A stretch of DNA of 39,032 nt, from positions 1-39,032 of the forward strand of contig JAAUUB010000013.1 in the NCBI GenBank assembly GCA_012031215.1, read 5' to 3'. Position numbers and translations under genes: made by a program. Below, one piece after another: positions 12,694 through 38,898 of this stretch. The notes under the pieces were generated by a model. The model saw only the letters and a list, made by a program, of their open reading frames with translations. It searched no databases and had not been told where the DNA came from. The first letter of the stretch is position 1; each line of letters opens with the position of its first letter. This DNA is from Microscillaceae bacterium. Lineage in GTDB: Bacteria; Bacteroidota; Bacteroidia; Cytophagales; Microscillaceae.

Positions 12694-13551
12694 ATGCGCT
12701 ACCTGCTATTTTGGCTTTGGGGGATGTTGTTGGCCCCGCCTGGCCTTTTGGCCCAAACCGACAATGCCCTCCTGAATCCCCGTGCCGTTGGCATGGGGCG
12801 GGTATCGGTCATCCTGGCCGATGAGGGGGCCGTATGGAGTAACTTGGCGGGCCTGACGGCAGTGGAGCAAGCCTCAATCCTGGGTACTTACGAAAATCGT
12901 TTTGACTTTTCGGCCTTCCAGACTTTTGCCCTGGGCGGGGTTTTGCCGTTTGCCTGGCCGGGGGCGGCGGGCCTGAGCCTCTCCCGTTTTGGGGATGGAC
13001 TATACAATGAGTTGAAAATTGGCCTGGGCTATGCCCATCAGCTTGATATGGTGAGCCTGGGTTTGAAAATCAACTACGTACAGGTGGCTCAACAAGACCT
13101 GGACAGCCGGGGCAGCTTTGCCTTTGAGCTGGGGGGGCTGGTCAATATCACGCCCCGCTTTGTGTTTGCCGCCCATATTTACAATTTTAACCAGGGCCAG
13201 TTGCGGGCCGAAAGCACCGAGAATGAAGCCCTGCCGGTGGTGATGCGGGCCGGAGTAGGCTACCAGTTTTCGGACAACCTGCTCCTGGGAGCCGAACTAG
13301 AAAAAGACCTTGACTTTCCGGCCAGTGTGCGGGTAGGGCTTGAATACCGAATTGCCAAGCCTTTTTGGGTGCGCACAGGCATTCGCACGGCCCCCTTTGA
13401 CGTGCACGGGGGGCTGGGCCTGCGCCACAAACGCTGGCTTTTTGACGGGGCCATCAGCACCCAAACCAATCTGGGGATTACTTTCCAGTTTTCGCTGGGC
13501 TATCGCTGGGGCCAATCACAAAAACGCCCAAAGAAAAATGCAGATGAATAA
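12694..13551 (+). CDS. PorV/PorQ-like outer-membrane barrel protein
   Basis: A 285-residue protein with a signal peptide ending in GLLAQ. It opens with the block typical of the PorV/PorQ group: NPRAVGMGRVSVILADEGAVWSN. Alternating strands follow to the end (LLLGAELEKDL, VRVGLEYRI, WVRTGIRTAP), and the C-terminus ends in aromatic barrel strands (GITFQFSLGYRW). PorV and PorQ are type IX secretion components, but the wider family includes many barrels of unknown role, so I do not assign a symbol. The start is the ATG at 12694 (MRYLLFWLW). Its stop overlaps the start of the next gene, suggesting translational coupling and joint function. Confidence 0.75.
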   Translation: MRYLLFWLWGMLLAPPGLLAQTDNALLNPRAVGMGRVSVILADEGAVWSNLAGLTAVEQASILGTYENRFDFSAFQTFALGGVLPFAWPGAAGLSLSRFGDGLYNELKIGLGYAHQLDMVSLGLKINYVQVAQQDLDSRGSFAFELGGLVNITPRFVFAAHIYNFNQGQLRAESTENEALPVVMRAGVGYQFSDNLLLGAELEKDLDFPASVRVGLEYRIAKPFWVRTGIRTAPFDVHGGLGLRHKRWLFDGAISTQTNLGITFQFSLGYRWGQSQKRPKKNADE

Positions 13552-15647
13552 AATAGGTCTTTGGCTGGGGCTGGGGTTCATATACCTGGCCTGGAGCTTG
13601 CCCGCCCAGGAGTATCCCCGCCGCGAGGTAGATTTGGATGAGTTTATTCTGGAGCTTTTCCCGGTGCAGGATGAAGACCTGGACTACGAAGAGATTTACG
13701 AGGCTTTGTTTCAATATTATCGTCAACCCCTCCATCTCAACCAGGCTACGCGGGAAGAATTGCAGTCCCTCTACGTACTTTCTGAACGCCAAATCAATGC
13801 CCTGCTGGCCCACCGCGAGCAGTTTGGCGATTTGGTAAGCATCTACGAACTCCAAACAATCCCTGATTTTGACCTGGGGACAATTTACAAGCTTTTGCCC
13901 TTTGCCCAAATTCGTGATACTGGCCGCAAATCATTGCCCCTCTGGAAACGCATCCTTGAAGAAGACAATAACTACCTCCTGCTCCGCTACGACCGGGTGC
14001 TGGAAACCCAGCGGGGCTTTACCGACCAGGCCACCCCTTCTACCACCTATCTGGGTTCGCCCGGACGTATTTATGCCCGGTTTCGGGTGAGCCATCCCCG
14101 CGATTTTAGCCTGGGCTTCACTCTGGAGAAAGACAATGGCGAACAACTCATCTGGGATGCCGAAACCCGCCGCTATCTGGCCGATTTCATCTCTTTTCAC
14201 GCCTATTTTGAGAATAAAGGCCGCTTTAAAAAAATTGCTTTGGGCGATTACCAGATTCAGGCGGGCCAGGGGCTGGTTTTGTCCGGGGGGCTTTGGGGTA
14301 GGCAAGGGGGCCGAAACGGTGCTCACCGTGCGCCGCAACCAACTCGGCATACGGCCTTACACCTCTTCGCTCGAGACGGGCTTTTTCCGGGGAGCTGCGG
14401 CCTCTTACGCACTTGGACCCCTGCAAATCACGGGTTTTTACTCCCGCGTCCGGCGCGACGGCACGCTGAGTGCCCCCACCGACAGCACCGAGGCCGAGTT
14501 TGAAGCCTTTATTGAGACCCTGCGCACGACTGGCTTTCATCGAACGGAAAGCGAAATTGGGGGCAAGGGCCGTTTTGTGGAGCAGACTTTGGGCGGCCAC
14601 CTGCTCTTTCAAAATAAAAACAAAGCCTTTCAGGCTGGGCTTACGGGGGTTTATACCCATTATAACTTGCCTTTTCAGCGCAACGTGCAAAGCCGCAAAG
14701 ACAGCATCGTGGATTTGTTTGAGTTTCGGGGGCAAACCAATTACAACCTCGGCCTGCACTTTAACTATCACTGGCAAAACTTTTCTTTTTTTGGGGAAGC
14801 GGCCCGCTCCAAAAGTGGCGGCCTGGGGGCTGTGGGCGGCCTGGTTGCCAGTCTGGCTCCCAATGTAGAGTTTGCCTATCTTATCCGGCATTACGACCGC
14901 GACTTTCACACATTCTTTGGTTCGGCCCTGGGCGAGGGTACACGCAACATCAATGAACAGGGCATGTATTGGGGGATTAAAATTACGCCCATTGTGCGCA
15001 AGCTCAAAATTGCGGCCTATTACGACCGCTTTCGTTTTCCCTGGCTGCGCTTTCGGGTAGATGCCCCCTCCGAAGGATATGAATGGCTGGGGCGCATCAC
15101 CTACTTTTTTTCGCGGGCTACCAACGTATATTTTCAATATCGCCACGAAGCCAAAGACCGCAACCTGAATACCGAGGAAAGCGAAACGGTTTTTCGCCCT
15201 GTTTCACGGGGCGACCGCCGCAATTTTCTATTTAACCTTGATTATCGGGCCAAGCGGTTTTTCCGGCTTCAGTCGCGGGTGCAGTTCAGCACTTTTGATT
15301 TTGCGGGAAGGCGTACTTCAGGACTGGCCTTGGTGCAAGACCTGGGCCTGGACCTGGGTCGGCTCAAACTGGATGTACGTTTTGCCCTTTTCGACACCGA
15401 AGATTTTGACAATCGCCAGTATGTCTATGAGCGCGATGTACTTTGGGCCTTTTCCATTCCGGCCTACAATGGGCAGGGCTTGCGGAGCTATGTACTGTTG
15501 CGCTATCAGCTTACCCGCAAACTGGACCTCTGGCTGCGCTATGCCCGCTTTGATTACCGCAACCAGGACACCATCAGTAGCAGTGGCGACCTCATTGAAG
15601 GCAATACCCGCTCCGAGCTAAAGGTGCAGGCACGGGTGAAGTTTTGA
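13544..15647 (+). CDS. Secreted helix-hairpin-helix plus beta-barrel protein (one frame break)
   Basis: About 700 residues after repair. A signal peptide (to about PAQEYP) is followed by two ComEA-like helix-hairpin-helix motifs: LNQATREELQSLYVLSERQINALLAHR and the GDLVSIYELQTIPDFD repeat. The remaining 500 residues are rich in alternating aromatic strands such as RFRVSHPRDFSLGFTLEKD and LWLRYARFDYRN, and look like an outer-membrane barrel. The frame breaks in the G6 run at 14285-14290; one G fewer joins GLVLSGG to FGVGKGAETVLTV. The start at 13544 overlaps the barrel gene upstream by 8 nt. Helix-hairpin-helix domains usually bind DNA, so a surface DNA role is possible but not shown. Confidence 0.82.
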
Positions 15648-20426: not shown

Positions 20427-20744
20427 CGTTTTCAAGGTTTGAATTTTGGAAAGCCGGCAAAGGCTTTACGGCGGAAGTTATAACACTGCTTAAAGGTAAG
20501 GCTTTGGCCTCGTTTCTGCAAAAAAAAGGGGCAATAAGAAGCTTCGGTCTTTCGTGCGACAAACCGCTGCATCCTAACGGGCAAAAACCACGTTTTCTTG
20601 CAGGTGTGCAATCAGCCCCCAAACGCCCTTGCCTTTGTGCACATCCACTCGTTTGTTTGCCGCGCAGGTTTTAAAACTAGCCCGGCCAAATTTGGAGATT
20701 CTCGTAAAAATATGCAAACTTGTAAACAACTCCGTTCTACGCTT

Positions 20745-22168
20745 ATGATGAAAGCTTTTTCCCTCCCTACTTTGCGCTTTCTGGGTTTTATTTTATTGGG
20801 CTTTGCACCAGCGGGTTTGTGGGGCCAGGACTTTGGCAGCGGCTTGCGCCTCGATGACGAAGGCTATGCCGAAATTCCGCTCAAAGCCTCGCTCATCAGC
20901 CGTGATTATACTGAACTGCCCCGACAGGTATCGCTTAAGGCCTATTGCCCTACCCCCGGCAATCAGGGGGTGTATGCCACCTGCGTAGGCTGGGCAACGG
21001 CTTATGCCGCCCGCACCATTATGGAAGCCCAGCGAAAACAATGGACTGACCCGGCTATGATTGCGCAAAAAGCGTTTTCGGGGGCATTTATCTACAAGCT
21101 CATCCAGATAGCCAGCGATATTTCCTGTGAATACGGCACCCATTTCCAGGATGCCCTGAGCATTATGAAAGCCCGGGGGGTGCCCCGGCACCAGGATTTT
21201 CGCCCGCTTTGCCCGGGCAGTGTCTCCATCCCGGAGGCCTTGCACGACAGTGCCCAGGCTTACCGGATTGAAGATTTTCACCGACTTTTCAACGTAAGTG
21301 ATGGGGCCAATTTTAAGACCCAGGCTGTGCGCAAAGCCCTGGCCCAGGGCATCCGGTGGTGTTTGGCATCAAACTCGTGCCCACCCTTTACAAAGCTGGC
21401 CCGCTCTGGGAACCGCTCTCCGAAGAACGTCTCTCAGGTGGAGAAGGGGGCCATGCCCTTTGCATCATTGGCTATGATGATGATAAGTTTGAGGGCCATG
21501 GGGCTTTTGAAATTATGAACAGTTGGGGAACCAGTTGGGGTCAGGGAGGATTTTGCTGGATAAAATACCAGGACTTTGCCGATTTTGCCAAATACGCTTT
21601 TGAGATGATTTTGCCCGCCCCTCCTCAGATAAATGGCTGGCAAGGCCGTTTTTCGGTAGTCTTGCGCAATCAGCAGTCTCTGCCCGTGCGCTTGAAAGAA
21701 AATACTGCCGGCCTGGGATATTATGAACTGCTCCAGGCGCAGGCGGCTGGCACAGAATTCCGGGTGCATTTTGGCACTAAGGCTCCGGCCTATGTCTATA
21801 TCCTCGGTTCTGACCTCACCAATGAGATATTTGCCTTGTTTCCCCACCAACCCGGCATAAGCCCGGCGCTCAATTATACCCAGAGCGAGATTGTTCTGCC
21901 CGACGAATCTCATTATATCCGCCTGGACCAAGAGCCAGGTCGCGACTATCTGCTGGTACTCTATGCCCAGAAAGCCCTCGATTTTGCCCAACTACAAAAA
22001 GCGCTTCGGCAAAGCAGTGGAAACTTTGCCCAAAGAATACAAAAAGTATTGGGAAATACCCTGGCGAATGCCTCCGCAGTAAAGTTTGAAAACAATCAGA
22101 TGCGATTTGAAGCCCAGTGCCCGGCCGATAAAGTGGTGGGCCTGCTGCTGGAAATCAACAGGCAATGA
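20745..22168 (+). CDS. Papain-like (C1) peptidase with C-terminal DUF4384-like domain (one frame break)
   Basis: About 474 residues after repair. A signal peptide (to about LWGQDF) precedes a papain-fold domain with oxyanion Gln74 and nucleophile Cys80 in NQGVYATCVGWATAYAART, catalytic His in GGHALCIIGYDDD, and Asn in IMNSWGTSWGQGGF. The C-terminal 170 residues resemble DUF4384: a FRVHFGTKAPAYVYILGSDLT strand pair, an ALFPHQPGISPALNY loop and SEIVLPDESHYIRLD. The frame breaks at GGG 21347-21349; one more G joins AQG to HPVVFGIKLVPT. An in-frame ATG at 20712 would be a longer start. It is probably secreted or surface-bound. It is convergent with the Rpn cassette array, 4 nt away. Confidence 0.87.
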
Positions 22169-22172
22169 GCGG

Positions 22173-22415
22173 CTATGAAGAAACAAAGGGAAGGATTTTA
22201 TATAAAGCAAACTGGTCTTGCTGCACCTCTTTCACAAAATCCAGGTTTACTTCAAAAAGCTCGGCTATTTCTTCCCGGTTGAGCTTGCCCTGAGCAATTG
22301 CTTTGCGAATCCCGGCAATTTTGGTTTGTAATGTACCTTGCTGCAAGCCTTGTTGTAAGCCTTGCTGCAAGCCTCTTTCTTTTACTTCCTGTAAAATGGC
22401 TTCTTCTATTCCCAT
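22173..22415 (-). CDS. Rpn C-terminal cassette 3 (orphan, 80 residues)
   Basis: The third and shortest copy of the Rpn C-terminal cassette. ATG 22415 lies 6 nt after the stop of cassette 2, with the same TGAAAAAATATG junction, so translation is probably coupled. It encodes MGIEEAILQEVKERG, three LQQG units, then TLQTKIAGIRKAIAQGKLNREEIAELFEVNLDFVKEVQ. The final dozen residues (QDQFALYKILPFVSS) differ from the other two copies, so this is the most diverged. It lacks any nuclease domain. Expected to form a helical coiled-coil-like protein able to pair with the C-terminal end of the nuclease; this is inferred from repeat identity. Confidence 0.7.
   Translation of the reverse strand: MGIEEAILQEVKERGLQQGLQQGLQQGTLQTKIAGIRKAIAQGKLNREEIAELFEVNLDFVKEVQQDQFALYKILPFVSS
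22335..22370. repeat. 12-bp tandem repeat, 3 units (cassette 3)
   Basis: Three in-frame 12-bp units, each encoding LQQG on the minus strand. Same register as the repeats in the other two cassettes. Confidence 0.9.
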
Positions 22416-22421
22416 ATTTTT

Positions 22422-22700
22422 TCATTTCTGAGGGTGCTTGCCCTCTTGTACCTCATTCACAAAATCCAGGCTTACTTCAAAAAGCTCGGCTATTTCTTCA
22501 CGGTTGAGCTTGCCCTGAGCAAGTGCTTTGCGAATCCCGGCAATTTTGGTTTGTAAGGCTCCTTGCTGCACACCTTGTTGCACACCTTGTTGCAAACCTT
22601 GTTGCAAGCCTTGCTGTAAGCCTTCTTGCAAGCCTTGCTGTAAGCCTTGTTGCAAGCTTCTTTCTTCTACTTCCTGTAAAATGGCTTCTTCAATTCCCAT
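22422..22700 (-). CDS. Rpn C-terminal cassette 2 (orphan, 92 residues)
   Basis: A second stand-alone copy of the nuclease C-terminal cassette. ATG 22700 lies 6 nt after the nuclease stop codon; the junction reads TGA then AAAAAT then ATG. The 92-residue product is MGIEEAILQEVEERS, eight LQQG-like units (one with E), ALQTKIAGIRKALAQGKLNREEIAELFEVSLDFV, ending EGKHPQK as in the full gene. Outside the repeat it is nearly identical to the C-terminus of the nuclease, so the duplication is recent or kept similar by gene conversion. The spacing from internal ATG to cassette ATG (309 nt, then 285 nt) differs by exactly two repeat units. Confidence 0.75.
   Translation of the reverse strand: MGIEEAILQEVEERSLQQGLQQGLQEGLQQGLQQGLQQGVQQGVQQGALQTKIAGIRKALAQGKLNREEIAELFEVSLDFVNEVQEGKHPQK
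22560..22655. repeat. 12-bp tandem repeat, 8 units (cassette 2)
   Basis: Eight in-frame 12-bp units encoding mostly LQQG and VQQG on the minus strand. Unit number differs from the sister tracts (10 and 3), as expected for slippage or unequal exchange. Confidence 0.9.
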
Positions 22701-22706
22701 ATTTTT

Positions 22707-23009
22707 TCATTTCTGAGGGTGCTTGCCCTCTTGTACCGCTTTCACAAAATCCAGGCTTACTTCAAAAAGCTCGGCTATTTCTTCCAGGCTGAGCTTGCCC
22801 TGAGCAAGTGCTTTGCGAATCCCGGCAATTTTGGTTTGTAAGGCTCCTTGCTGCACACCTTGTTGCAAACCTTGCTGCACACCTTGTTGCAAACCTTGTT
22901 GCAAGCCTTGCTGCACACCTTGTTGCAAACCCTGTTGCAAACCCTGTTGCAAGCCTTGTTGCAAGCCTCTTTCTTCTACTTCCTGTAAAATGGCTTCTTC
23001 AATTCCCAT
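22707..23009 (-). other. Candidate intragenic start: Rpn small C-terminal protein
   Basis: Codon 240 of the nuclease is ATG (23009), in frame, preceded by the A-rich leader AAAGAAAAAAT. The same A-rich leader and MGIEEAI start open both downstream cassettes, where this ATG must be the true start because there is no upstream coding sequence in frame. That makes internal initiation inside the nuclease gene likely, giving a 100-residue small protein. In E. coli, rpn genes are known to make such a short C-terminal form that inhibits the long toxic form. Confidence 0.55.
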
Positions 23010-23726
23010 ATTTTTTCTTTGTTGAAAAGTGGTTTGTATCGTCTCGTCCAGCACTTGAAGGCTTTTTGCTTTCTTAAACCGGACGTAATACCGGATGAAA
23101 TTCAAAAGCTTACGAATCTTGTCATCGCTGTAATGTGCCTCCCGCAAATTTCGGACTAAGTCCCTCTTCCAAATCAACTGCCGCTCATCGCGCTGGTTTC
23201 CTTTTATGAGGGCCTGGCGAGCCGTTTGCATCACAACCGAAAAAGGATTTTCGGGCTTCTCGAGTTCCGCTTCGCTCTTTTCTAAAAGCTTAAAAGTGGC
23301 AAAATGATATTCAATCCGGGTGCTTTGGTACTGATAGTAGTAGGCCCGGGGATGAAAATCCGGGTTTTCGTCGCTCAGGAGCGCCAGGGTCAGGAGGTCT
23401 TGCCCAAAGCGTTCGCGGATACGGGTAAAGTAGATGAACATGCGCTCGGCAAAATCAGGGTCTTGATAGCCTTGCACCTCGATATGAATCAAAATCCATT
23501 GTTCGTTGTCCTGTTTGGTAAAAACCCGCACCAGTTTGTCGGCATAGCGTTTTTGGTTACCTTCGGGCTTGGGGTAGATTTCGTCCAGTTCCTTATCCAA
23601 AAACTGAAAAGCTTTGCTGAAATCAACGGTCTGGGCCGTCCATTCCGGGAAGAAATAATATAGAAAATCATCAAACAAATCCTCGATAATGCCTTTCCAG
23701 AGGGTATCTTTTGAGATGTAGGTCAT
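22707..23726 (-). CDS. Rpn-family PD-(D/E)XK nuclease / putative transposase
   Basis: A 339-residue Rpn (recombination-promoting nuclease) protein. Start is ATG 23726 (MTYISKDTLW), 16 nt after the stop of the upstream gene; an earlier GTG at 23750 would overlap it. The nuclease core shows Asp63 in RYADKLVRVF and Glu83-x-Gln85 in ILIHIEVQGYQDPDFAERMF, the ExQ form of the PD-(D/E)XK motif usual in this family. A helical middle part leads to the C-terminal cassette from Met240: GIEEAILQEVEERG, ten LQQG-like units, then a small helix-turn-helix-like tail (GKLSLEEIAELFEVSLDFV). Rpn proteins promote RecA-independent recombination, cut DNA, and act in phage defence. Two copies of the tail follow downstream. 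Confidence 0.88.
   Translation of the reverse strand: MTYISKDTLWKGIIEDLFDDFLYYFFPEWTAQTVDFSKAFQFLDKELDEIYPKPEGNQKRYADKLVRVFTKQDNEQWILIHIEVQGYQDPDFAERMFIYFTRIRERFGQDLLTLALLSDENPDFHPRAYYYQYQSTRIEYHFATFKLLEKSEAELEKPENPFSVVMQTARQALIKGNQRDERQLIWKRDLVRNLREAHYSDDKIRKLLNFIRYYVRFKKAKSLQVLDETIQTTFQQRKNMGIEEAILQEVEERGLQQGLQQGLQQGLQQGVQQGLQQGLQQGVQQGLQQGVQQGALQTKIAGIRKALAQGKLSLEEIAELFEVSLDFVKAVQEGKHPQK
22845..22964. repeat. 12-bp tandem repeat, 10 units (nuclease C-terminus)
   Basis: Ten in-frame 12-bp units encoding LQQG or VQQG on the minus strand, residues about 255-294 of the nuclease. Any change in unit number keeps the frame and alters the length of a helical spacer by 4 residues per unit. Confidence 0.9.
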
Positions 23727-23742: not shown

Positions 23743-24630
23743 CTACTCACACAAGACGGTTTCGGCCAGGGGGCTGGCGTGGACGGCTACCCGCACAACC
23801 TTGTTTTTGACCAAAACCAGGCTCAAACAACCATACGCACGGGCATAAAAATAATGCAAGCGGGGCGGAGCACCACCTATTCGGGCTACTTCGGTACGAG
23901 CGGGCAGGCCCAAAAGCTTTTGCACCGTGCGGGCCTTCTGACCCAGCACGGCCTGCGAGAGCTGACCTTTGAAACCTGTCCGCACCTCGATATAATCGCG
24001 CCCGGTGTAGAAATTAAAGCCGTGGCTGGCAAAAAACACCCCCCCACCACAGTTCATTTCGGCATTGTCGGGCGAATCGTCGGTGAAGCAAGGAAAAACA
24101 TCCTTAATCATCGGGTTGGGGGCCGTGAGTTGCATGCCATTGAGCGTGCCTTTGTCCAGGTCCAGAAACAGATGTTCGCAGTTGAGGTTTTCGCGGCGCA
24201 GGGGGGTGAGTTCCTGGGCACTCAGCCCTTCGGCTTTGCGCAGGGTGGCATAGGCCTGAAGCTGGTAATCGCTGGCCGAAAAATAGGAATAAGAAAGATG
24301 CTCGCGGTCAATCAGGGTAATGACAATGCGCCCCTCGTCCGCACAGAGCGACTGGCCCGCAAAGATAAACTCCCGAAAGACGGCCCTTTGGGCATCCGCC
24401 GTTACGAGTACCCAATCGCCCTGGCAGCCCCGGATGGGAAAAGCCACCCGGTAATGGCGACCTTCGGGCTGGGCCACCAGTGTCATTTCGCTTTCAGTCT
24501 GGATGGCGGGGGCATACACCACCCCTATCCACTGGCCTTCCATCCAGGTGGGCAGGGATTGCGCCGGGGCATTGCCCGGACTTAGCCACAAGCCCAGTCC
24601 CAGCAGCAGGTTTTGATAGATTGTTTTCAT
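23743..24630 (-). CDS. Secreted protein of unknown function
   Basis: A 295-residue protein starting at ATG 24630 (MKTIYQNLLLGLGLWLSPG) with a signal peptide cut near APAQ. The N-terminal half begins TWMEGQWIGVVYAP and looks like a small lipocalin- or beta-barrel-like domain (REFIFAGQSLCADEGRIVI). The C-terminal half has a FNFYTGRDYIEVRTGF and LLGLPARTEVARIGG pattern with RLHYFYARAYGCLSLVLVKNKVV, resembling an SmpA/OmlA-like or gliding-motility-type fold, but I cannot assign a family. Six or more cysteines suggest disulfides in the periplasm. It is 16 nt upstream of the Rpn nuclease start, so the two may be co-transcribed. I could not link their roles. Confidence 0.65.
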   Translation of the reverse strand: MKTIYQNLLLGLGLWLSPGNAPAQSLPTWMEGQWIGVVYAPAIQTESEMTLVAQPEGRHYRVAFPIRGCQGDWVLVTADAQRAVFREFIFAGQSLCADEGRIVITLIDREHLSYSYFSASDYQLQAYATLRKAEGLSAQELTPLRRENLNCEHLFLDLDKGTLNGMQLTAPNPMIKDVFPCFTDDSPDNAEMNCGGGVFFASHGFNFYTGRDYIEVRTGFKGQLSQAVLGQKARTVQKLLGLPARTEVARIGGAPPRLHYFYARAYGCLSLVLVKNKVVRVAVHASPLAETVLCE

Positions 24631-37549: not shown

Positions 37550-38898
37550 ATGGAAGAAAATATAAAGAAAATTGTGGTGCTGGGGGCCGGCGAAAGTGGC
37601 GTGGGAGCGGCACGATTGGCCCAGGCCCGGGGCTACCAGGTGTTTGTATCAGATGCGGGCGAAATCGCTCCGGCATTTGAAGCAGAGCTCAAGCAGTACG
37701 AGATAGAATACGAAATGGGGCAGCATACCGAAGTGCGGGTATTGGAGGCCGATGAAATTGTGAAAAGCCCCGGAATTCCCAATGAAGTATCCATTTTAGA
37801 AACCCTTCGGGAGCGAAATATTCCCATCATTTCTGAGATTGAGTTTGCCGCCCGCCATACCCAGGCCAAGATTATTGCCATCACAGGCAGCAATGGCAAA
37901 ACCACCACCACTTTGCTTACCTACCATCTTTTGCAATCGGCGGGCTTTAAGGTAGGCCTGGCTGGCAACATCGGTGATAGTTTTGCCCGTAAGGTGTTGG
38001 AAGTGCAACCCGATTACTGGGTGCTGGAAGTGAGTAGTTTTCAGCTCGAGCACTGCTTTCACTTCAGTCCTGATATTGCCATCTTGCTCAATATTACCCC
38101 CGACCACCTGGACCGCTACGGCAATAATTTTCAGCGCTACGTGGAGGCCAAGTTTCGCATTGCCCAAAACCTGAAAGCTGATCAACATTTTATCTATTTC
38201 AAAGATAACCCGGCCATTGCCCGCGAAATGCGCAAACTCAACCTGCCGGGCAGCTTTGGCCTATTTCCATTCAGGAAACCCTCGAGAATGGGGCCTTTCT
38301 TCGCGACAAGGCCCTTCATTTTCTGTTGAAAAAAAATAAGTTTCAGGCGCAAATCCCCGCCGAGGAAATTCCGCTCAAAGGCCGCCATAACCTGGTCAAT
38401 ACGATGGCTGCAGTGCTGGCCGGATTGCAGGTAGGGGCTACGGTGGATGTATTACGGACTTATTTTCACAATTTTAAAGGCGTGGAGCATCGCCTGGAAG
38501 AGGTAGCCGAAATCGCCGGGGTAAAGTTTATCAATGACTCAAAGGCCACCAATGTAGATTCGGTCTATTTTGCCCTCGATAGCTTTGAAGAGCGAGTAGT
38601 CTGGATTGCCGGGGGAGTAGATAAAGGCAATGATTATGAAAAAATTTTCGACCTGGTCAAGCAAAAGGTCAAATACCTGGTATGCCTGGGCCGGGACAAT
38701 CAGAAGATTTTCAATACTTTTAAAGACGATATTCATATCATTTATCAGGCCGACAATATGCGCGATGCCGTTGAGCAGGCCTTTGAGCTGGCCCGGGCTG
38801 GCGATATTGTTTTGCTCTCGCCAGCTTGCGCCAGCTTTGATTTATTTAAGAACTATGAAGACCGGGGTCAGCAATTCAAAAAATTGTGGCCAAACTGA
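37550..38898 (+). CDS. murD: UDP-N-acetylmuramoyl-L-alanine:D-glutamate ligase (one frame break)
   Basis: MurD adds D-glutamate to UDP-MurNAc-L-Ala in peptidoglycan synthesis, in the cytoplasm. 449 residues after repair, as expected. The N-terminal Rossmann-like domain has VVLGAGESGVGAARLA, the ATP P-loop GSNGKTT is at residues 113-119, then EVSSFQLE, NITPDHLDRYG, and KGRHNLVNTMAA with FINDSKATNVDS in the C-terminal domain. The frame breaks around 38259-38263; one more base joins GSFGLFP to SIQETLENGAFLRDKALHFLLKKNKF. It is the first gene of a plus-strand pair with ftsW. mraY, usually just before murD, is absent; the upstream neighbour is a divergent dehalogenase gene. Confidence 0.94.

Follow-up and report, generated by a model that had tools for sequence, protein, structure and literature searches.

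In Escherichia coli, the C-terminal tail of Rpn nucleases is also made separately from an internal start, and this product, RpnS, binds and blocks the nuclease (Zhong 2023, PMC10327210). The tails contain four-residue repeats that vary in number, and RpnC_L is blocked only by the RpnC_S of equal repeat number, a rule that comes from a single published RpnC experiment (PMC10327210). Stand-alone RpnS copies are located 3′ of E. coli rpnE (ypaA, the protein of which has been detected) and rpnC, and the same work mentions whole-gene rpn arrays as well as rpnS loss via deletion or fusion (PMC10327210). In the sections of that paper covered here, the cause of tail-repeat expansion and contraction is left open, and stand-alone RpnS is given no separate role. 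Spare tail cassettes downstream of a parent gene are also a feature of the orphan cdiA-CT/cdiI and rhs-CT/rhsI modules, which can be loaded onto the main gene via deletion or recombination (PMC3150448, PMC3967940).

The locus described here occupies positions 22173–23726 of the window, i.e., the whole 39,032-nucleotide stretch of DNA that was analyzed. It consists of the following features:

22707..23726, minus strand: Rpn-like PD-(D/E)XK nuclease (RpnL), 339 aa (ORF, profile match, conserved residues)
22707..23009, minus strand: cassette 1, intragenic RpnS-like tail, 100 aa, 10 units (internal Met conservation)
22422..22700, minus strand: cassette 2, stand-alone tail copy, 92 aa, 8 units (ORF and unit list)
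22173..22415, minus strand: cassette 3, stand-alone tail copy, 80 aa, 3 units, differing C-terminal end (ORF and unit list)
22846..22968, minus strand: 12-nt repeat tract of cassette 1 (Tandem Repeats Finder and unit list)
22561..22657, minus strand: 12-nt repeat tract of cassette 2 (Tandem Repeats Finder and unit list)
22336..22374, minus strand: 12-nt repeat tract of cassette 3 (Tandem Repeats Finder and unit list)
23010..23017, minus strand: leader GAAAAAAT before the internal ATG of cassette 1 (sequence)
22701..22708, minus strand: duplicated leader GAAAAAAT before the cassette 2 ATG (sequence)
22416..22423, minus strand: duplicated leader GAAAAAAT before the cassette 3 ATG (sequence)

The nuclease ORF starts with ATG, with an alternative GTG possible at 23750, and cassette 1 opens at the internal ATG 23009, inside the nuclease gene. 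Both junctions of the array read TGA-AAAAAT-ATG, such that each small ORF begins 6 nt past the prior stop and the first 2 bases of the leader ahead of cassettes 2 and 3 are the end of the preceding stop codon. The ATG-to-ATG spacings are 309 and 285 nt, and the 24-nt difference equals two 12-nt units. An earlier, sequence-only reading of this locus gave every one of these numbers correctly (ORFs, spacings, junctions, and the two-unit difference). It described cassettes 1 and 2 as nearly identical outside the repeats, and they indeed share 42/42 nt before the tract and 130/135 after it; cassettes 1 and 3 share 40/42 and 113/135 nt, the latter including their unlike ends. Its proposal that a gene tail was amplified with its start context agrees with the presence of the leader before all three ATGs. 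The C-terminal end of cassette 3 is longer than and unlike those of cassettes 1 and 2 (QQDQFALYKILPFVSS), and cassettes 2 and 3 have NREE/E in common where cassette 1 has SLEE/A. The 285-nt period was scored 1042 by Tandem Repeats Finder, far beyond chance. With the longest exact repeat in the array at 78 bp, simple collapse or expansion by short-read assembly is not an obvious explanation, although other genes of the contig are split between frames. Among the matches listed, there was no near-identical cassette copy elsewhere in the genome, the next best being 80% identical over 95 nt. A promoter scan returned 2 promoter-like sites (1.8 expected), both on the other strand, and a terminator scan returned none (3.3 expected).

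Several other features of the contig were observed. Long open frames with hydrophobic VASLVA-type repeats run antisense to the repeat tracts (22523–22792 and 22808–23077, plus strand) and are probably a by-product of the 12-nt repeats. Adjoining the array is a papain-type (C1) peptidase (20598–22168, plus strand) that is seemingly split over two overlapping frames, the domain match covering the C-terminal part only, on the second ORF. A MurD-like ligase is likewise divided between 37550–38329 and 38326–38898 (plus strand) in different frames, with Mur_ligase_M and Mur_ligase_C on separate ORFs, which suggests a sequence or assembly indel in the contig. A similar frame split may be present at 13340–15647.

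Sequence comparison supports assignment of the window gene as an Rpn-type nuclease, one that is sub-threshold by profile: it reaches 32.2 bits with TIGR01784 (cut-off 52.1) and 17.1 bits with PF04754 (cut-off 21). Its sibling L051, which is 53% identical to it, scores 59.5 bits with TIGR01784, above the cut-off, and in alignment A1, seven of eight proteins hit PF04754 with E ≤ 0.01. Profile comparison of the window class with E. coli RpnC gave a probability of 67 (E 5e-5); the alignment spans most of the length, runs to the C-terminal end, and pairs HIEVQ with VIEHQ (E-x-Q motif). Comparison with RpnE gave a probability of 2.4 (E 0.019). D63, E83, and Q85 are present in 100/100 class-A proteins, and D63 and E83 together with the E-x-Q of class A are presumably PD-(D/E)XK-type motif residues. 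The nuclease call of the initial reading is supported. The structure model of the nuclease has a pLDDT of 77; the fold search against the PDB gave Cap4 as the best match (E 0.046) and, lower down, EndoMS (E 0.3–0.4), with none at E ≤ 0.001, and a sequence search against solved structures gave nothing useful. PADLOC returned weak matches only, namely ‘C3a178 putative invertase’ (3e-8), whose match spans the linker plus the repeat tract, and HamB (0.0012). Matches to FliH were rejected as repeat-composition matches. The best named relatives of the nuclease belong to Microscillaceae, other Cytophagales, and Saprospiraceae and are mostly MAGs.

The internal methionine (residue 240) is kept in 94/100 class-A proteins, while linker columns 236–239 are conserved in at most 48%; such conservation amid a variable linker is as expected of a start codon. 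The tail of the window gene has variable four-residue repeats (10, 8, and 3 units in the three cassettes) and is predicted, at low confidence, to be helical; the single-sequence model of cassette 3 is likewise of low confidence (pLDDT 63). Correspondence of the window cassettes to the RpnS antitoxin is supported at the level of sequence; translation of cassettes 2 and 3 probably begins at the ATG that each of them carries.

The closest parallels are E. coli rpnE-ypaA and rpnC-rpnC_S, which share with the window a nuclease with an intragenic RpnS, four-residue repeats, and a downstream copy with its own start. At rpnE-ypaA, the likeness extends to repeat-number differences (measured here), and fusion alleles also occur in the E. 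coli system. The two differ in that (i) the E. coli loci that were read have one copy, whereas the window has two in tandem, (ii) the class-A nuclease of the window is remote in sequence from E. coli Rpn, and (iii) the window leader is A-rich without an evident Shine-Dalgarno motif, in contrast to GGAG in E. coli. In CDI/Rhs, a cassette combines a toxin fragment that usually lacks a start with a separate immunity gene (PMC3150448, PMC3967940); in the window, by contrast, an antitoxin-like tail brings its own start and the nuclease domain stays constant. Tandem arrays of whole rpn genes (PMC10327210; L132) are alike in being tandem direct duplications but comprise whole nuclease genes, not tails. 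L132 (G050:C1:707500-715000) has four tandem Rpn genes ~2.2 kb apart in a single-contig 1.2-Mb genome; their tails are about 84–98% identical, and the outer two genes are cut by the ends of the stretch. What is new here is the tandem pair, the recurrence, and the parent–copy repeat mismatch. Stand-alone RpnS as such was already known, a single one having been published 3′ of both rpnC and rpnE (PMC10327210), which reduces the novelty that the sequence-only reading had implied. A literature search gave no mention of tandem RpnS outside E. coli or of a parent–copy mismatch in the text it covered, and the supplement of Zhong 2023 may show cases.

The stretch duplicated at E. coli rpnE reaches 14 nt upstream of the ATG, taking in the GGAG motif; some alleles have a single mismatch. 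In five subfamily-B Bacteroidota pairs (L049 twice, L050, L053, and L107), similarity begins at the ATG. The copied leader in the window and in E. coli, together with the ATG-bounded similarity of the B pairs, points to a unit made up of start signal, tail, and stop in two phyla.

Stand-alone copies recur among relatives, while loci with more than one copy are rare. At least one downstream same-strand copy accompanies 28 of 162 distinct nucleases, and 134/162 are without one by the same test; the 162 are those with a visible stop, ≥400 nt of downstream sequence, and a gap-free tail, and a few of them are not Bacteroidota. The search extended 1,500 nt past the parent and took fragments of at most 200 aa; decayed copies without a 30-residue open fragment escape it. 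Copies were found at 1/7 loci of the window's genome, 13/26 of the family set (which is biased, many of its loci having been chosen for a previously seen cassette match), 6/68 of the order and class set, and 8/61 of the genome_contigs set (which partly overlaps the family set in loci). The alignment search retained 80/92 loci, the nuclease search of genome_contigs gave no match, and a single scan of viral contigs gave no confirmed relative. Multiple copies are present at 3/28 loci: the window (two), L049 (two), and L095/L256 (two, one frameshifted). Not counted as copies were L172 (a 213-aa fragment, above the 200-aa limit), a second match at L099 (1,852 nt off), and L168 (whose tail is interrupted by a frame change). 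Of about 31 copies, two show visible damage to the reading frame or length.

Upstream of the nuclease, the 158/162 loci with ≥400 nt of sequence yielded one cassette-like fragment (L062) and one larger Rpn-like fragment farther off (L167). The L062 fragment (G012:C25:1-143), a cassette end truncated at the contig edge, immediately precedes an Rpn nuclease and might represent the tail of an earlier gene. Of the two matches on the opposite strand, L269 is an artefact of repeats and L136 a fragment of 32 aa. For 29/32 copy ORFs, the closest parent is the adjacent one, which suggests a repeated local origin of the copies. The first stand-alone tail at L049 (G006:C16) is closer to the parent tail of L050 (G006:C3, same genome) than to that of its own parent, a sequence similarity that hints at tail traffic between loci.

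Frame changes and N runs also occur in the collection. A second class-A Rpn of the window's genome, L012 (G000:C196:18192-19099), has a mid-gene frame change, despite which its tail ORF with the internal Met stays open. In L168, an Rpn-like gene of the same genome, the frame change falls within the repeat tract. L060 and L126 have N runs (gaps or masking) within or beside the tail; if these are gaps, drafts may undercount such arrays.

Most copies have probably been under protein-level constraint. The parent versus copy dN/dS is 0.30 (bootstrap 0.24–0.39) over 25 Bacteroidota pair rows with the tract mostly excluded, and 0.23 in E. coli. By reasoning, about 0.5 or more would be expected if the copy were neutral and its parent constrained. 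The set is without the L083, L177, L126, L127, and rpnC loci, its rows include the two L095 halves of one frameshifted copy, and in several pairs the tract finder was partial, leaving some repeat codons in the count. Gene conversion could mimic the signal of constraint.

Parent and copy mostly differ in repeat number. In Bacteroidota-centered sampling, 24 of 27 scorable pairs are unequal, the parent being longer in 18 and the copy in 6; the three equal pairs are L050, L055, and L268, the last without a clear tract. The 27 pairs derive from 32 ORF hits after removal of two L256 fragments (one frameshifted copy), L258 (truncated copy), L177 (shared Met after the tract), and L284 (from a Fuchsiella and so outside Bacteroidota, with the cassette embedded in a longer ORF), with L177 and L284 being unequal by eye. 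Some pairs are partly non-independent, L175/L176, L046/L047, and L049/L050 coming from shared genomes, and part of the net difference in L083 and L113 (8 and 2 residues, respectively) lies outside the tract. Finished genomes weigh more because equal copies might be merged in draft assemblies. The L175 and L176 pairs, which come from a three-contig genome, are both unequal, and in finished E. coli genomes, 19 two-copy rpnE-ypaA loci reduce to 10 distinct allele pairs, of which 0/10 are equal. The E. coli loci were hand-picked for variety; L206 (parent with an internal stop) was unscored, L164 is single-copy, and the copies at seven two-copy rpnC loci were too diverged for a clean tract count. 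When the nine distinct length pairs (ten by sequence) were shuffled, 0.56 matches were expected and none occurred in 50% of shuffles; parent and copy lengths have a rank correlation of 0.30 (p 0.43, nine length pairs). The E. coli mismatch is therefore at the level of random pairing, which counts against required matching but does not demonstrate selection for mismatch; selected mismatch was weighed as an explanation and found unsupported.

Under the equal-number rule (PMC10327210), such frequent mismatch means that most copies should not inhibit their present parent. This weakens the suggestion of the sequence-only reading that the cassettes are additional antitoxins for the same nuclease. 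The version of it in which the copies simply add RpnS against the adjacent nuclease and repeat number hardly matters gains from the published function of RpnS and synthesis of YpaA (PMC10327210), from the adjacency of closest parents, and from the protein-level constraint. It is nevertheless unlikely, given that equal repeat numbers alone are reported to block (PMC10327210) and that 24/27 and 10/10 pairs are unequal.

Evidence that tails are replaced comes from E. coli. By megablast, the distal tail of the K-12 rpnE parent type matches in 3,102/5,426 E. coli genomes and that of the ypaA type in 5,363/5,426; at least 2,261/5,426 genomes thus hold a ypaA-type tail without a near match to the parent type. 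In 9/20 spread-sampled matches, the ypaA-type tail lies inside a gene annotated rpnE, and CFT073 rpnE (L164), the one such allele that was read, ends in the copy-type tail and is a fusion. The two tail types differ at a pooled proportion of 0.45 of synonymous sites in the distal part; of the genomes matching a given type, nearly all are ≥95% identical to K-12. Given this strong divergence between types and uniformity within them, the species probably spread after the two-copy state had arisen, and strains with a single copy presumably came about via deletion. The case for tail replacement is an E. coli one, built on the counts and a single sequence; in Bacteroidota, no replacement was seen. 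The idea of a pool for tail exchange, also raised by the sequence-only reading, is favored by the E. coli counts and the CFT073 fusion and is for now confined to that species.

The reading preferred here, to which a probability of roughly 0.5 is assigned, is that the locus is an Rpn gene-within-gene unit whose stand-alone copies are standby antitoxin tails that can be loaded by recombination, with the orphan CDI/Rhs modules as a precedent. The RpnS unit, from a short leader to the stop codon, would have been tandemly duplicated twice behind RpnL. The copies, with 8 and 3 repeats relative to the 10 of the nuclease, are probably not its cognate inhibitors if the published same-number rule applies. 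Recombination across the shared segments would delete the intervening DNA and join the next cassette to the nuclease. Loading a cassette would in this way alter the toxin and its intragenic antitoxin together, and the stand-alone product already in the cell would match the switched nuclease. We infer translation of the array, the direction of deletion, the advantage of switching, and any anti-phage role. A broader version is more tentative and clearly less probable: Rpn loci in general may act as cassette magazines, with pre-expressed mismatched RpnS copies that are loaded by deletion, so that the specificities of nuclease and antidote switch together and perhaps escape phage inhibitors.

Alternatively, the copies might guard against other Rpn proteins, whether of paralogues, incoming mobile elements, or other strains, in the manner of orphan immunity genes. 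In E. coli, the tract lengths of 0 and 4 residues found in copies recur in the parents of other strains, and the kinship of the first L049 copy with the L050 parent, at another locus of the same genome, fits such a role. No matching foreign partner was found for the cassettes of the window, and we know of no between-cell delivery of Rpn, which weighs against this explanation. In its favor, one orphan CdiI has been shown to be produced and to confer protection from the orphan toxin that it accompanies (PMC3150448). Overall, non-cognate immunity appears doubtful, somewhat more so than added dosage. Equally doubtful is the view that the copies are neutral relics of frequent repeat-driven tandem duplication and deletion, which would suit the random pairing in E. 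coli, the two broken copies, and the many nucleases without a copy but fits poorly with a dN/dS whose upper bound of 0.39 is lower than a neutral copy should give, with the retained starts and leaders, and with the persistence of the stand-alone tail type in nearly all E. coli genomes.

For the biology of Rpn systems, the mostly unequal repeat number of the copies, found in two phyla, argues against their simplest role as an extra antidote. For loading of standby tails, the E. coli strains offer both states, as K-12 has rpnE plus ypaA and BL21(DE3) rpnE ends, by annotation, in the ypaA-type tail. The mismatch yields a direct prediction that is testable in E. coli rpnE/ypaA strains.
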